Shown here piece after piece: positions 17,023 through 63,470 of a DNA stretch of 63,540 bases. The notes under the pieces were generated by a model. The model made no database searches. It was not told where the DNA came from and saw only the letters and a list, made by a program, of their open reading frames with translations. The stretch's first letter is position 1; each line of letters begins with the position of its first letter. The stretch is from Verrucomicrobia bacterium Ga0077533 (GTDB lineage Bacteria; Verrucomicrobiota; Verrucomicrobiia; Opitutales; Opitutaceae): assembly GCA_001464505.1 (NCBI GenBank), contig LNEH01000209.1, forward strand, positions 1 to 63,540, read 5' to 3'. Position numbers and translations under genes: made by a program.

Positions 17023-17111
17023 CTAGATGCTACCAACGCGCGCCCCGAATCCAAGTGAGTGAGACGCGCCCAACACGGACAGCGCACGCCCCGAGCCCCC
17101 GAAGTGAACGC

Positions 17112-17134
17112 CGCCCTTCGCCAAGGCTACGGAG
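17112..17134 (-). repeat. GCCTTGGCGAAGG hairpin repeat (spacer copy)
   Basis: Minus-strand match to the core of the hairpin repeat that also occurs at 17761, 46836, 51307, 54568, 63441 and, in frame, in the coiled-coil gene at 28457-32563. Confidence 0.6.
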
Positions 17135-17216
17135 GACTGGCCGGCGGGCTGGGGGCCAAAGGGCCGGCGACCACGCCGGGCTTGCGGTCTATGTCACCAC
17201 CGCCTAGTTTATCGGC

Positions 17217-17760: not shown

Positions 17761-17791
17761 AACCCGCCGTAGCCTTGGCGAAGGCTGGGTT
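17761..17791. repeat. GCCTTGGCGAAGG hairpin repeat at the 3' end of pncC
   Basis: AACCC ... GGGTT outer arms around GCCGTAGCC-TT-GGCGAAGGC. The right arm touches the minus-strand stop codon of the pncC-like gene at 17790. Confidence 0.7.
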
Positions 17792-28456: not shown

Positions 28457-31400
28457 ATGAAAACTTTCCGCTCGCTCGCCGCTTTGTTCGTCTTAGCCCT
28501 CGGTCATCTCGCCGCCGCGCAGGAAAGCAGCGAGGTCGCCTCGCTTCGCGCCAAGGCCGAGAAGGGCAACGGCATCGCCCAATACAACCTCGGCCTGGCC
28601 TACGCCGACGGCAAAGGCGTCGCCCGTGATCCCATCGAAGCCTATGTTTGGCTTTCACTCGCCCGGGAAAACGGCGCGCGGGGCCGGGCCCTCGATAATG
28701 TCGTGGCCACGCTCGACAAGGCGTCACTGGATCTCGCCCGGCAGCGCATCACCGAACGCAAGACGGCCCTCGGGATGACCCCGGGGGCGCCCGCCGCGGC
28801 CACCAAACCCGCAACTCCGGCTCCGGCCATCGTCAAGGAAAGCAAGTCCGCCGCACCCAGCCTGACCGGGGCGACCGGCGCCGACACCGCCGAGGATCCG
28901 GCCATCGCCCGTCTGCGCAAGGAGCGTGATGCCTACTCCACCAAGATCGGCGAAATCGCCGCTGACCTCTTCACCGTGCGCACCGACCGCGATCGCCTCG
29001 CCGAGCAGGCCGCGGAAATCCTTAGAAACACGCAGGCCGTCAGCGCGGCCAGCCTCAGCCTGCAGGAACAAGTCCGCGCGGCCGAGGCCCGGGCGGCCGA
29101 ACTCGCCCGCACCAATGCGGCCATGCAGGCCGAACTCGCCCGCACCAAGCAGGAACTCGCCACCCTGACCGCCCTGTCCTCCGAAGCAACCCGCGCCAAG
29201 CAGGAAGCCATGGCACTCTTGAAAGCGAAGGAGGACGCCCCCCGGCCTGCTCCCGACACCGCCGCGCTGGACGCGAAGACCCGCGAACTCCAGGCCGCGC
29301 TGGCCGAACTCGAAGCCGCCCGCCAGTTCGGCCGGCAAGTCGAGGACACGCTTAATAAAGTGAATGACGACCGGGCGCGCGTCGCCGCCAACGCCGCCGC
29401 CGAACTCGAGGCCGCCCGCCAGTTCGGCCAGCAGGTCGAGGTCACGTTGAACAAGGTCAACGACCAGAAGGCCGCCCTGGAAACCCAACTCGCGACCGTT
29501 CAGCGGGCGCTCGCCGCCAAGTCCGCCGCGCCCGGTTATCCCGATTTGTCGGGTCGCGTGTCGGAGCTGGAGACCGCACTCGCCAGCGCGCGCCATGCTG
29601 CGCCGGCTTACCCCGATCTTTCCGGCCGGGTGCGTGAGCTGGAAGCCCAGCTGACCGCCGGTTTGTCCGCCGGAGCTTCAGCGAAGGCGGAAGCCGGCCG
29701 CGCGCAACTGGAAGTGGCGGCGCTGACCAACGCGAAGGAGGGCATCCAGCGTGAGCTTGCCACGGCCAAGGCCGCGCTGGCCCAGGCCAATCAGGCCTTG
29801 GCCACCAAACCCGCCGCCCCGAACTATCCTGATCTTTCGGGCCGCGTGCGCGAACTTGAAGCGCAAGTGTCCGCCGACTTGTCCGCCGTAGCCTTGGCGA
29901 AGGCGGAAGCCGCTCGCGCCAAGCAGGAGGTGGTCGCATTGACCCAAGCAAAGGAGGACGCCCGCAGCGCCGCCCCCGCCTACCCGAACCTCACCGATCG
30001 GGTGCGGGAGCTGGAAGCGCAACGGTCCTCCGACTTGTCCGCCGTAGCTTCAGCGAAGGCGGAAGCAACCCGCGCCAAACAGGAAATCGCGGCGCTAACC
30101 CTGGCAAAGGAGGCGGCCCAGTCCGCCAAACCTGCGGCGCCGGCGTATCCTGATCTTTCCAGCCGGGTGAATGAACTTGAGGCCGCCCTCGCGACTTCGA
30201 TCCAGAAATTCGGCGCGGCCGAACAGGCCCGGACCGAGACCGCGCGGCAGTTCGACGACTACAAGAGCGCCACCGCCGCCGCCCAGCGCGAACGCATCAC
30301 GCTCCAGGCCACCTTGAAGATGCTGGAATCCGACAAGACCTCGCTCCGCCGCCAGGTGGACGCGGCCACGACCGAATCGAACCAGCTCCGCACGCAGGTC
30401 GCGGCGCTAAAAACCCAGGCCGCCGCCCTCCGGCCCGCCACCCCGGGTTATCCCGATCTGTCCGGCCGCGTGGGCGAATTGGAATCACAACTGGCCAAAG
30501 CCAACACCGACTTGTCCGCCTTGGGCTCGGCGAAGGCGGATCTCTCTGGCAAAGTCGCCGAATTGGAGTCCGCGCTCGCGGCCAGACCCGCGGCGCCGAG
30601 TTATCCCGATTTGTCGGGCCGGGTCACGGAACTTGAGACCGCCCTCGCCGCCAAACCCGTCGCCCCGGCCTATCCCGACCTGCGCACCAATGTATCCGCC
30701 CTCGAGACACAGCTTGCGACCGCCCAACAGGCGCTGGCCGCCAAGCCCGTCGCTCCGACTTACCCCGATTTGTCGGGCCGGGTGAGCGAACTCGAGGCCG
30801 CGCTCGCCGCCCTGGGCTCCGAAGCAAACCGCGCCAAACTGGAGATAGCCGCGCTGAACGAAGCGAAGGAGGCGGCCCGCAACTCCTCTCCTGCTTATCC
30901 CGATCTGACCAACCGGGTGGGTGAATTGGAAAGCCAGCTCGCTCGCGCCCAGATCGAGCTCTCCGCCACAAGTTCGGCGAAGACGGACCTCACCGGCCGC
31001 GTGAACGAGCTCGCCGCCGAGATCACCCAGCTCCGCACCGACCGCGAGCGCATGCAGAAACTTCTGGCCGACAGCGGCCGCCAGCTGGCGGAAGCCACCG
31101 CCGCGGCCCGCAGCCGCCCGGTCGCCCCGGCGGGTTACAGCGAACGCGTGCGCGAACTCGAAGCCGCCCTGGCCCAGGCCAAGGCCTCTCCCGCCGCCCC
31201 GGCCTACCCCGACCTGTCCGGCCGAGTGGGCGAATTGGAATCGCAACTGGCCAAAGCCAACACCGACTTGTCCGCCGCAGGCTCGGCGAAGGCGGATCTC
31301 ACCGGCGAAGTCGCCCAGCTCCGGACTGACCGCGAGCGCATGCAGAAGATGCTCGCCGACGTCGGCCGCCAGCTCCGCGACAACACGGCGGACACCGCCC

Positions 31401-32563
31401 GGATCAAGGAACTGGAGACACAACTAGCCGGCCTGTCCGCCGCAGCCAGCCAGACGAAGCAGGAAATACTGGCGCTCACCAAGGCGAAGGAGGACGCGCA
31501 GGCCCAGACCGGCGGTCTCACCAGCGAGCGCGACGCCCTGTCCTCCGAAGCCGCCCGTGCCAAACAGGAAATCGCCACGCTCACTCAAGCGAAGGAGGAC
31601 GCGCGCAACGGGCAGCAGGAATTGCGCGACACCATCGCCCGTCTCGAGCGGGAGAAAGCCCAGCTCGCGAGCGCCAAGCCCATCCAAGCCGGCACCCCGG
31701 CCTATCCCGACCTCTCGGGCCGCGTGCGCGAACTTGAAGCGCAAGTGTCCGCCGACTTGTCCGCCGTAGCCTTGGCGAAGGCGGAAGCCTCTCGCGCCAA
31801 GCAGGAGGTTGCCGCATTGACCAAAGCGAAGGAGGATGCACCCCGCGGCCAGGCCGCCCCCGCCTACCCGGATCTTTCCGGTCGCGTCAGCGAATTGGAA
31901 TCCGCTCTGGCCGCGGCCAAGCAGCAGTTGGCCCAGACCCAATCCGCGACCGCCTCCACCGGCGACACCAGCGGGCTGGAGCAAAAACTCGCCGACTCGG
32001 AAGACCGGCTCGCCACCGCGCTGCGCGGTTATGCCGCTCTCCAGCGCGAGCGCGACACTCTCGCGGAAAACGCCAGCCAGTCGGCCGCCGCGATCGCCGC
32101 CGAACGCGATGTCCTCGCCGGCCAGGTCGCCAGCCTGACCGGCCAGGTCGAGCAACTGCGTGCCAGCGCCCAGAGCAGCGAAGGCAGCACCCAAGCCGAG
32201 CTCACGCGCCTCGGTGCGGCGGTCACCGCGCTCCAGCGCACGACGGCGCAAGCCTCGGGCGATCTCGCCGCCGCGCGCGCCCTCGCCCAGCAGTTGCAAG
32301 GCGCCAACTCCGTGCTCGCCGGGGAAAACTACCAGCTGAAGACGATGCTCGCCCGCACCACCGGCGGCCCCGCGCCCGCCACCGCCCCGGTCACCGCGCC
32401 GGCGGCCCGCACCCATGTGGTGGTCGCGGGAGATTCCCTCTCGCGTCTCAGCCAGCGTTATTACGGCTCCGCCGGCCGCTGGCAGGAAATCTACAACGCC
32501 AACGCCCCGCTGCTCGGGCCCAACGGCGTGCTCCGCGTCGGCACGGAACTCCGCATCCCGTAA
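28457..32563 (+). CDS. Secreted coiled-coil repeat protein with C-terminal LysM domain
   Basis: 1368 residues from ATG at 28457. Order: signal peptide (MKTFRSLAALFVLALGHLAAAQ), a Sel1-like unit at about 27-75 (GIAQYNLGLAYADGKGVARDPIEAYVWLSLA), a Pro/Ala linker, then about 1200 residues of Ala/Glu/Leu/Lys-rich coiled coil, and a LysM domain at about 1318-1368 (VVAGDSLSRLSQRYYGSAGRWQEIYNAN), which binds peptidoglycan. The coil is divided by about 14 copies of a Tyr-Pro-Asp-Leu-Ser-Gly-Arg-Val x Glu-Leu-Glu module. Six segments (nt 29662, 29876, 30032, 30509, 31265, 31754) encode LSAxxxAKA-type sequence from the same hairpin repeat that is dispersed in spacers. Probably a periplasmic fibre or spacer protein. 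Function unknown. Confidence 0.85.
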   Translation: MKTFRSLAALFVLALGHLAAAQESSEVASLRAKAEKGNGIAQYNLGLAYADGKGVARDPIEAYVWLSLARENGARGRALDNVVATLDKASLDLARQRITERKTALGMTPGAPAAATKPATPAPAIVKESKSAAPSLTGATGADTAEDPAIARLRKERDAYSTKIGEIAADLFTVRTDRDRLAEQAAEILRNTQAVSAASLSLQEQVRAAEARAAELARTNAAMQAELARTKQELATLTALSSEATRAKQEAMALLKAKEDAPRPAPDTAALDAKTRELQAALAELEAARQFGRQVEDTLNKVNDDRARVAANAAAELEAARQFGQQVEVTLNKVNDQKAALETQLATVQRALAAKSAAPGYPDLSGRVSELETALASARHAAPAYPDLSGRVRELEAQLTAGLSAGASAKAEAGRAQLEVAALTNAKEGIQRELATAKAALAQANQALATKPAAPNYPDLSGRVRELEAQVSADLSAVALAKAEAARAKQEVVALTQAKEDARSAAPAYPNLTDRVRELEAQRSSDLSAVASAKAEATRAKQEIAALTLAKEAAQSAKPAAPAYPDLSSRVNELEAALATSIQKFGAAEQARTETARQFDDYKSATAAAQRERITLQATLKMLESDKTSLRRQVDAATTESNQLRTQVAALKTQAAALRPATPGYPDLSGRVGELESQLAKANTDLSALGSAKADLSGKVAELESALAARPAAPSYPDLSGRVTELETALAAKPVAPAYPDLRTNVSALETQLATAQQALAAKPVAPTYPDLSGRVSELEAALAALGSEANRAKLEIAALNEAKEAARNSSPAYPDLTNRVGELESQLARAQIELSATSSAKTDLTGRVNELAAEITQLRTDRERMQKLLADSGRQLAEATAAARSRPVAPAGYSERVRELEAALAQAKASPAAPAYPDLSGRVGELESQLAKANTDLSAAGSAKADLTGEVAQLRTDRERMQKMLADVGRQLRDNTADTARIKELETQLAGLSAAASQTKQEILALTKAKEDAQAQTGGLTSERDALSSEAARAKQEIATLTQAKEDARNGQQELRDTIARLEREKAQLASAKPIQAGTPAYPDLSGRVRELEAQVSADLSAVALAKAEASRAKQEVAALTKAKEDAPRGQAAPAYPDLSGRVSELESALAAAKQQLAQTQSATASTGDTSGLEQKLADSEDRLATALRGYAALQRERDTLAENASQSAAAIAAERDVLAGQVASLTGQVEQLRASAQSSEGSTQAELTRLGAAVTALQRTTAQASGDLAAARALAQQLQGANSVLAGENYQLKTMLARTTGGPAPATAPVTAPAARTHVVVAGDSLSRLSQRYYGSAGRWQEIYNANAPLLGPNGVLRVGTELRIP
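29662..31788 (+). repeat. Six in-frame copies of a dispersed hairpin repeat inside the coiled-coil gene
   Basis: Copies at 29662-29694, 29876-29910, 30032-30066, 30509-30540, 31265-31296 and 31754-31788. The two best (29876 and 31754) share 30 of 30 bases with the spacer copy at 63441-63470. All are read in the frame giving D-L-S-A-V-A-L-A-K-A-E-A or close variants. The DNA hairpin is TCCGCC ... GGCGGA with an inner GCC-TT-GGC. Confidence 0.85.
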
Positions 32564-45007: not shown

Positions 45008-45116
45008 ATCAATCCCCGCCTGTCAGCCGTAGGCCCGGCGAAGGCCGATGGGGACGCCACCCGCCAGGCCTTTGGATTCCAAAGGCCGTGGCGAGGTGTC
45101 TCGCCGGAGCCCAAAG
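45008..45116. repeat. 109-bp direct repeat, upstream copy
   Basis: Begins ATCAATCCCCGCC, contains the GCCGTAGGCCCGGCGAAGGC hairpin, TGGGGACGCCA, the palindrome GGCCTTTGG-ATT-CCAAAGGCC, GGCGAG/CTCGCC, and ends GAGCCCAAAG. By eye it differs from the downstream copy (45373-45481) at 7 of 109 positions. It ends 16 bases before the GIY-YIG start codon. Confidence 0.9.
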
Positions 45117-45132: not shown

Positions 45133-45519
45133 ATGCACTACGTTTACGTTCTGAAGTCGGTATCCCATCCACAGCACTATTACACCGGGGAAACCAGTGA
45201 TTTGCGCCAGCGATTCAAACAGCACAATGCCCGATCTTCCCGACACACGTCAAAATATGCCCCTTGGGAGCTGATATGGTATGCCGGATTTTCTGACCAT
45301 GCGACGGCGCTGCGTTTCGATGTGTTTTTGAAAACGGCCACTGGCCGGCAATTCCAGAAGCAGCATCTATCTATCAATCCCCGCCTCTCAGCCGAAGGCC
45401 CGGCGAAGGCTGATGGGGACGCCACCCGCCAAGCCTTTGGATTCCAAAGGCCTTGGCGAGGCGTCTCGCCGGAACCCAAAGGGAGTAAAGATCCTCGGGG
45501 CAAGCCCCGAGGCATTTGA
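45133..45519 (+). CDS. GIY-YIG nuclease domain protein in a repeat-flanked cassette
   Basis: 128 residues from ATG at 45133. The domain occupies residues 1-80: HYVYVLKSVSHPQHYYTGETSDLRQRFKQHN is the GIY-YIG strand pair (YVYVL ... YYTG) with the catalytic Arg, and DVFLKTATGRQFQKQHL ends the fold. The family includes small stand-alone nucleases of unknown role as well as UvrC and homing endonucleases. The last ~45 residues (RLSAEGPAKADGDATRQAFGFQ ...) are translated from the downstream 109-bp direct repeat, not from a protein domain. It lies about 220 bases after tRNA-Glu. Confidence 0.85.
   Translation: MHYVYVLKSVSHPQHYYTGETSDLRQRFKQHNARSSRHTSKYAPWELIWYAGFSDHATALRFDVFLKTATGRQFQKQHLSINPRLSAEGPAKADGDATRQAFGFQRPWRGVSPEPKGSKDPRGKPRGI
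45373..45481. repeat. 109-bp direct repeat, downstream copy
   Basis: About 94% identical by eye to 45008-45116, 365 bases away. It overlaps the 3' end of the GIY-YIG frame and includes a second TGGGGACGCCA. Confidence 0.9.
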
Positions 45520-45543: not shown

Positions 45544-45625
45544 TGTGGGAGCGACCTCTTGTCAGGCCATAGCGCTCGGGCGACGGCTGATGGTCGCGAC
45601 AGTCGCGTGCAAGCACGCTCCCACA
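45544..45625. repeat. TGTGGGAGCG palindromic repeat
   Basis: TGTGGGAGCG and CGCTCCCACA ends, 82 bases apart including both, with the inner GCGTGC-AA-GCACGC hairpin also seen at 1131-1148. Confidence 0.75.
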
Positions 45626-45693
45626 GGTTCCAGCCAAGCCGAAGCAAGCTCCGGAGTATTAAACCCACAGTGAATAAACCTGCCATGTGTCTT

Positions 45694-46785: not shown

Positions 46786-46982
46786 ATACCAATAGCCCGA
46801 TGAAAATACCCTGTCATTGCGAGGAGCGCAGCGACGACTTGTCCGCCATAGCCTTGGCGACGGCGGAAGCAATCCAGCCGTTTCTGAGCCGGAGCCGAAG
46901 GGGCCCCGAGCCTGTCGAGGGGCTGGATCGCCACGGCGCACTTCGCGATGACAACAGGGTAAAAGGTAACGGCGATTGGTAT
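46786..46982. mobile_element. ~200-bp MITE-like composite element, copy A
   Basis: Ends ATACCAAT and ATTGGTAT, with imperfect terminal inverted repeats continuing about 40 bases (…TACCCTGTCATTGCGAGG and …TACCCTGTTGTCATCGCGAAG in mirrored order). Inside are the GACTTGTCCGCC hairpin repeat (46836-46870), AGCAATCCAGCC and half of the TGTCGA module. It has no reading frame. It starts 4 bases after the purC stop. Copy B at 54453-54652 is in the opposite orientation. Confidence 0.8.
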
Positions 46983-51306: not shown

Positions 51307-51337
51307 GTCTCGCCGAAGCCTCGGCGAAGGCGGAAGC
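51307..51337. repeat. GCCTCGGCGAAGG hairpin repeat (spacer copy)
   Basis: GTCTCGCCGAAGCCTCGGCG then AAGGCGGAAGC. Variant of the hairpin family, just upstream of the glycosyltransferase start. Confidence 0.6.
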
Positions 51338-54452: not shown

Positions 54453-54652
54453 ATACTAATCGCCGTAACCTTTTACCCTGTTGTCATCGTGAGGTGCGCG
54501 AAGCGCGCCGTGGCGATCCAGCCCCTCGACAGGCTCGGGGCCTTGAGCTTGTCGAAACGGCTGGATTGCTTCCGCCGTCGCCAAGGCTATGGCGGACAAG
54601 TCGTCGCTCTGCTCCTCGTAATGACAGTCCAAAAGCTAGAGAACGTTGGTAT
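54453..54652. mobile_element. ~200-bp MITE-like composite element, copy B
   Basis: Starts ATACTAATCGCCGTAACC and ends GTTGGTAT. Reverse complement of copy A (46786-46982) over most of its length, including TTTTACCCTGTTGTCATCG, GGCGATCCAGCCCCTCGACAG, CGGCTGGATTGCTTCCGCC and GGACAAGTCGTCGCT. It also has a complete TCGACA/TGTCGA palindrome (54526-54555) and extra AAGCGCGCC. It lies between the symporter gene and the minus-strand lipoprotein gene. Confidence 0.8.
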
Positions 54653-63440: not shown

Positions 63441-63470
63441 CTTGTCCGCCGTAGCCTTGGCGAAGGCGGA
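63441..63470. repeat. GCCTTGGCGAAGG hairpin repeat after asd
   Basis: CTTGTCCGCCGTAGCC-TT-GGCGAAGGCGGA (written in parts), 14 bases after the asd stop. All 30 bases are identical to the in-frame copies at 29879 and 31757 in the coiled-coil gene. Confidence 0.85.

Follow-up and report, generated by a model that had tools for sequence, protein, structure and literature searches.

In this study we describe a 30-bp palindromic element in the Opitutaceae bacterium Ga0077533 and its presence, in frame and in several copies, within a gene for a coiled-coil protein (the host gene, Table 1). The window, i.e. the whole stretch of 63,540 nucleotides that was analysed, is contig 209 of a draft genome of 226 contigs and 2.93 Mb that is 82.75% complete. 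Our data indicate that the element is very probably a short, non-autonomous mobile palindrome resembling the repetitive extragenic palindromes (REPs), which colonised the host gene in frame and was then multiplied together with the repeats of this gene. We demonstrate the length of the unit, its dispersal, the existence of filled as well as unfilled sites, insertion in frame and separate sequence contexts. The initial annotation had offered colonisation by a mobile palindrome as one of two explanations, and it gains support from five loci with 30-bp filled and unfilled sites, an insertion in a flavin adenine dinucleotide (FAD)-linked oxidase, in-frame copies in unrelated genes and two groups of flanks in the host gene.

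The palindrome TCCGCCGTAGCCTTGGCGAAGGCGGA comprises 26 bp and forms, together with a CYTG tag, the moving unit of 30 bp. The perfect 30-mer including the tag reads CTTGTCCGCCGTAGCCTTGGCGAAGGCGGA. The hairpin consists of an outer stem of 6 bp, an internal loop GTA/GAA and an inner stem of 2-3 bp. Tag and stem were analysed in 52 copies outside the host gene with at most 4 mismatches, where the four bases 5' of the stem are CTTG (21 copies), CCTG (14) or others (17). Covarying stem variants are TCAGCC/GGCTGA, TCCTCC/GGAGGA and CCCGCC/GGCGGG, and we counted 17 two-sided compensated cells, compared with a mean of 3.4 and a maximum of 8 in 1000 shuffles. These compensated changes therefore suggest that maintenance or copying acts on the hairpin as such.

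The length of the unit was obtained from filled and unfilled sites. At each of 59 places (one locus being counted on both strands), 24-34 bases were excised and the joined flanks (36 bases) were sought in about 0.2 Mb of DNA from the same genome; self-matches were not excluded, scores of 25-29 were taken as background and scores above 30 were counted. Five places gave an unfilled match above background, namely L042 (34/36), L043 (35/36), L045 (31/36), L057 (33/36) and L093 (35/36). The cut length is exactly 30 bases in all five clear pairs, and in three of them the exact ends of the element can slip by 1-2 bases. For L042, the best unfilled match in the scan sits inside L042 itself. Our first assumption of a 26-bp unit was replaced by 30 bp on the basis of these pairs. 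Because 30 is divisible by three, a coding sequence that takes up one unit is lengthened by ten codons without a frameshift; the perfect 30-mer has a stop in one of the six frames and is open in the other five.

The initial annotation had named rarity in spacers throughout the genome as one result that would reduce the match to ordinary coding convergence. We found the palindrome, allowing at most 3 mismatches, at 53 places of the genome, 27 forward and 26 reverse, and the reversed control pattern at none. At this threshold the window contains 8 matches, and none appeared in any of 100 dinucleotide shuffles. All six spacer sites reported before (17112, 17761, 46836, 51307, 54568 and 63441) are present with 0-4 mismatches. 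Moreover, 17 of the 21 genomes of the genus, the own genome included, contain the element, as do 6 of the 16 genomes taken from the family's other genera.

Many of the sequences that carry the element are themselves repeat-like, and copies were found midway in sequences such as GTCATTGCGAGGAGCG...AGCAATCC and CATCCTGAG...AGCGAAGGATCC. Left and right flanks are complementary with a mean stem score of 3.56, compared with 2.83 after permutation (standard deviation 0.16, maximum 3.31, 300 permutations), a figure that is indicative only since the host families are non-independent. The complementarity therefore suggests that the element tends to occupy the tips of other hairpins. Nesting of the 30-bp hairpin, often near the symmetry centre of the host sequence, was noticed at positions 46838-46867 and 54571-54600 of the window and at L042, L043, L045, L057 and L093.

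Within the host gene we identified six copies with at most 4 mismatches, in agreement with the number given before (palindromes from 29666, 29882, 30038, 30515, 31271 and 31760), and a degenerate seventh at 30962 with 7 mismatches. All seven are located on the sense strand in one common reading frame. It had been stated that this frame always encodes D-L-S-A-V-A-L-A-K-A-E-A; the common frame holds, but the exact peptide DLSAVALAKAEA is present in only two of the seven copies, and the other five read GLSAGASAKAEA, DLSAVASAKAEA, DLSALGSAKADL, ELSATSSAKTDL and DLSAAGSAKADL. The perfect 30-mer is identical over 30/30 bases, third positions included, at 29878-29907, at 31756-31785 and in the spacer at 63441-63470. 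This identity had been recognised, with in-gene starts of 29879 and 31757 that have to be corrected to 29878 and 31756.

Alanine- and lysine-rich helix codons might resemble the palindrome by chance, and segments with 6-8 mismatches encoding a similar KA-rich peptide are indeed found in several orthologues. However, such a convergence has practically no probability in view of the 30/30 identities with all third positions, the zero matches in shuffles, the filled and unfilled pairs, and the recurrence of the 30-bp unit both in spacers and in other genes, where it is read in different frames; we ruled it out on the identities, the shuffles and the other-frame copies. Alternatively, gene conversion or recombination, instead of transposition, could have carried spacer copies into the gene. 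A recent conversion would leave the same two in-gene copies identical to a spacer copy, and the common flanks of copies 2 and 7 point to internal exchange of sequence in the host gene. Conversion, however, requires a similar site that already exists, whereas elsewhere the 30 bp are present or absent at unrelated sites, and we regard this route as improbable.

The flanks of the good copies form two groups, one comprising 29666, 29882, 30038 and 31760 and the other 30515 and 31271. Flanks of one group can be aligned over as many as 85 bases; flanks from different groups agree at 4-10 of 20 bases, while the elements still agree at 23-27 of 30. The likeness of the element without likeness of the flanks therefore argues for at least two entries into the host gene, where the copy at 30962 was not counted as a separate entry, its flanks being only weakly similar to the second group (11-12/20). 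After entry, the copies appear to have been multiplied by internal duplication together with the repeat units of the gene. Copies 2 and 7 share 67 of 80 flanking bases on the left and 54 of 67 on the right.

An unfilled counterpart of copy 3 is found in the same gene at 29167, identical in all 8 bases that precede the cut and in 17 of the 18 that follow it; its junction can be written TCCTCCGA/AGCAACCCGCGCCAA, the slash marking the cut. The orthologue in G007 contains another unfilled counterpart of copy 3 with 21 identical right-hand bases. Taking the own and the orthologous genes together, the best unfilled match was obtained at a removed length of 30 for 13 of 19 copies and look-alikes, compared with 9 of 60 control positions (Fisher p 2.2e-5), ties being broken towards 30 in copies and controls alike.

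The host gene, with seven copies, has the highest density of all single loci observed, and the initial annotation had also considered that its repeat is the source of the family, the dispersed copies being fragments of it. The orthologous genes do not agree with this proposal. No copy within 8 mismatches is present in the orthologue of G004, G010, G020 or G003, yet G004, G010 and G003 carry 11, 8 and 5 dispersed copies, respectively (G020 has neither). Furthermore, the dispersed copies show compensatory stem changes and the tag and carry no surrounding gene sequence. An origin in the gene is thus hardly credible, and we ruled it out on the copy-free orthologues of element-bearing genomes and the stem changes. 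Copies with at most 4 mismatches are found in the orthologues of G012 (1), G014 (2), G017 (1) and G018 (3, one of them perfect), those of G007, G011 and G016 contain look-alikes with 7-8 mismatches only, and the partial genes of G001 and G015 contain no copy; this count leaves out G005, G009 and G029, which have no usable frame.

Insertions in frame are not restricted to the host gene. Fifteen candidate coding frames were read, which gave at least seven further genes with an in-frame element, each supported by Pfam; the six other sites of the window lie in spacers. The frames at L001, L005, L038, L059, L095, L096 and L107 were not counted, since they have no support or probably precede the actual start of the gene. 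Among the matched genes are presumably RlmI-, GlcD- and IspE-like ones. In five of the seven genes the frame is the reverse-strand SAFAKATADK type, and DLSAIASAKAE and PVRRSLGEVG occur once each. The reverse-strand open reading frame of L089 reads SAVAKPMADK upstream of its matched part and contains, further on, a second look-alike in another frame, DLSAVGPAKAEA.

Comparisons of orthologues give the cleanest evidence for in-frame insertion. In an alignment with orthologues of 16 of the 21 genomes, the FAD-linked oxidase of the own genome and of G018 is longer by exactly ten codons at VFPG^Q, and 13 of the 14 other aligned orthologues are without them. The methyltransferase L004 has about 28 extra residues in frame in the own genome alone of 16, consisting of the element and neighbouring repeat-like sequence. 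In the oxidase orthologues of G010, G001 and G019 we noticed in-frame stops within the match (1, 1 and 2, respectively), and the match of G017 is split over two frames; assembly error or decay may account for this.

The uniform frame in the host gene can be approached from the target sites. Insertion sites resemble CGR^AGS, in the host gene GA^AGC. GAAGC occurs there 18 times on the sense and 3 times on the antisense strand, and 17 of the 18 sense sites are in phase 0 as Glu-Ala codons. The sense density amounts to 4.4 per kb; elsewhere in the window it is 1.1 per kb and strand. Of the 18 sites, 4 derive from the right edge of the element itself. An insertion at an in-phase GA^AGC reads D-L-S-A-V-A-L-A-K-A-E-A. 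Since nearly all GA^AGC targets are in the Glu-Ala phase, the single frame of the first flank group is explained without selection. Tentatively, a frame-neutral 30-bp hairpin with a preference for GA^AGC and an alanine-rich sense frame may have been steered into coiled-coil genes, where ten-residue helical modules were then multiplied; we consider this possible, if somewhat doubtful.

It is plausible that the element was retained because one of its frames suits a coiled coil. Positive selection after colonisation, with a peptide that usefully lengthens the coiled coil, would be compatible with a mobile palindrome. In its favour are the one frame of all in-gene copies, their multiplication with the gene units and the predicted structure of residues 440-600, modelled from a single sequence (mean predicted local distance difference test score 75), in which the ten-residue inserts from copies 2 and 3 lie within uninterrupted helices, a placement that shows compatibility only. 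However, target phase alone predicts the frame of the first flank group, several orthologues do without the element, and copies in other genes are mostly in other frames, so that selection of this kind seems rather unlikely. Tolerance rather than selection is presumably the cause of retention.

Several observations weigh against colonisation by a mobile palindrome as we describe it. For 54 of the 59 places there is no outstanding unfilled counterpart in the 0.2 Mb searched (best scores 25-29, i.e. background, with many self-matches). The unfilled scores inside the gene (30-34/42) are no better than those of controls (29-37), only the preferred length being different, and since the in-gene copies are not independent, the preference for length 30 is support and not proof. 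In the second flank group the bases after the element are TCTC and not AGC, and the GA^AGC rule leaves this group unexplained. In the FAD-linked oxidase, G012 has unrelated residues at the insertion site, and a tree of 14 genomes based on two proteins does not show G000 and G018 as sisters, with a support of 0.70 for G018 together with four others. The insertion may have happened once, with later losses, or twice at the same site, or the tree may be in error; the ten-codon step itself is secure whichever history holds. Lastly, no mobilising enzyme could be linked to the element at the 34 of 85 Y1 loci scanned, each with flanks of at most about 1.5 kb.

The Y1 transposase family (PF01797) has 6 matches in the own genome, and the 85 matches are distributed over 16 of the 21 genomes of the genus. 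Among the 34 loci scanned, L160 is accompanied by two copies with 2 mismatches and L157 by one match with 5 mismatches. The copies at L160 (G017:C151, positions 2253 and 2363) are direct ATAG/GACG-variant copies 110 bp apart, at most 1.5 kb from the Y1 match in an open frame of 327 aa.

Overall, we propose that the mobile palindrome presumably transposes as single-stranded DNA by means of some HUH/Y1-type enzyme. It would add exactly 30 bp at CGR^AGS-like sites, often at the tips of other hairpins, and in a gene this would amount to ten added codons with the frame intact. The coiled-coil LysM gene would have been entered at least twice, one flank group arising at the Glu-Ala codons GA^AGC, with D-L-S-A-V-A-L-A-K-A-E-A as an alanine-rich helical insert. 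Internal duplication of the repeat units of the gene would then have multiplied the inserts.

Table 1. Host gene, copies of the element and unfilled counterparts in the window, and further genes with in-frame copies (given by locus).
Feature	Location	Strand	Basis or remarks
Host gene, Sel1/coiled-coil/LysM, 1368 aa	28457..32563	+	Pfam matches and genus orthologues
Unfilled counterpart in host gene, ...TCCTCCGA/AGCAACCCGCGCCAAGCA vs copy 3 ...TCCTCCGA(30 bp)AGCAACCCGCGCCAAACA	29167..29202	+	28/36, cut -4, length 30
In-gene copy 1, TTTG tag, GGAGCTTCAGCG core	29662..29691	+	4 palindrome mismatches, in frame
In-gene copy 2, 30/30 identical to spacer copy 63441-63470	29878..29907	+	sequence match
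In-gene copy 3, flanks match unfilled unit 29167	30034..30063	+	flank comparison
In-gene copy 4, second flank group with copy 6	30511..30540	+	flank comparison
In-gene copy 5, degenerate, 7 mismatches, tag lost	30958..30987	+	flanks weakly second-group-like, 11-12/20
In-gene copy 6, flanks common with copy 4	31267..31296	+	flank comparison
In-gene copy 7, identical to copy 2 and spacer 63441; flanks common with copy 2	31756..31785	+	sequence and flanks
Unfilled copy of the repeat that bears the element in L042	32668..32691	+	likeness judged by eye
Unfilled counterpart of locus L057 copy	45594..45629	-	33/36 bases, cut length 30
Spacer copy	17111..17136	-	4 mismatches
Spacer copy	17763..17788	+	3 mismatches, no CYTG tag
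Spacer copy, nested in larger repeat GCGACGA(30 bp)AGCAATCC	46838..46867 (palindrome from 46842)	+	2 mismatches
Spacer copy	51309..51334	+	4 mismatches
Spacer copy, nested in larger repeat shared with 46838 copy	54571..54600	-	2 mismatches
Spacer copy, perfect 30-mer	63441..63470 (palindrome from 63445)	+	sequence match
S-adenosylmethionine (SAM) methyltransferase, RlmI-like	L004		Pfam-supported, element in frame
FAD-linked oxidase	L047		Pfam-supported, element in frame
DUF2238 protein	L049		Pfam-supported, element in frame
Pyrimidine nucleoside phosphorylase	L051		element just past C-terminal domain, outside matched domain
PD40/DPPIV-N protein	L089		element before matched part, outside domain
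GHMP kinase, IspE-like	L097		Pfam-supported, element in frame
M20 peptidase	L099		Pfam-supported, element in frame

In the product of the host gene, Pfam matches Sel1 at residues 41-73 and LysM at residues 1320-1368, with a long, repeat-rich helical or coiled-coil middle between them; DUF285 is not among the Pfam matches. Orthologous matches were obtained in all 20 other genomes of the genus that were searched. Relatives at 26 named loci belong in 23 cases to Opitutaceae, Opitutia or unnamed Verrucomicrobiota (Lacunisphaera, Opitutus, Oleiharenicola and others), and the remaining three are weak, short matches elsewhere. Outside the host gene, two distant variants at 45023-45048 (5 mismatches) and 45388-45413 (6 mismatches) are followed by 30 bases that are alike but for one (tggggacgccacccgccaRgcctttggatt) and are probably part of a longer duplicated stretch.

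Opitutus terrae belongs to the Opitutaceae. In the two uvrA regions of G023, which we take to be O. terrae, no copy of the element was found within 7 mismatches, and identity with the REPs of the O. terrae uvrA genes was not confirmed there. PMC3733652 describes GTAG- and CGTC-tagged REPs, some of them intragenic, with the most intragenic GTAG repeats in O. terrae and REPs within both of its uvrA genes. As in the REPs portrayed there, which are mostly intergenic with a minority in genes, the present element is a short, tagged and dispersed hairpin, and with 30 bp, 53 places and covariation of the hairpin it falls within the broad definition of REPs (palindrome of 20-40 bp, many copies). Unlike GTAG REPs, it carries a CYTG tag; GTAG was found 5' of the stem in 0/52 copies and CTAC directly 3' in 0/52, GTAG-like bases being internal to the hairpin at palindrome positions 7-10. 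It also differs from the CGTC REPs and from the Rickettsia palindromic elements (RPEs) RPE-4 and RPE-6, which have a CGTC tag, with CGTC 5' of the stem in 0/52 and GACG directly 3' in 0/52. No associated REP-associated tyrosine transposase (RAYT) gene was found at the 34 of 85 Y1 loci scanned, which may be a further difference from REPs.

Like the RPEs as presented in PMC10969869 and PMC3733652, the element is a mobile palindrome that is found in frame in unrelated protein genes. RPEs, given as about 150 bp in PMC10969869, are roughly five times longer than the 30 bp found here, and they differ in sequence and phylum. The PARCEL (palindromic amphipathic repeat coding element) sequences outlined in PMC2996958 are similar in that dyad-symmetric DNA encodes amphipathic helical repeats. 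They differ by a motif of 25 residues in tandem arrays within open reading frames, mostly recognised also by DUF285, whereas the present element is mostly located outside the coiled-coil gene. In the open-access literature searched we found no account of the element in a coiled-coil gene. Selfish palindromes in frame are already known from Rickettsia and from REP-rich genomes, and the present case bears on how such insertions are tolerated. The unit is of one fixed length, a multiple of three, its sites are known both with and without it, the phase of its measurable target preference predicts the reading frame, and copies inserted in one gene were multiplied as protein repeats; how mobile DNA turns into a protein repeat thereby becomes directly testable in cultivable Opitutaceae. 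By analogy with these systems, the element may be described as a REP-like and RPE-like intragenic palindrome, which resembles REPs in form and RPEs in behaviour.

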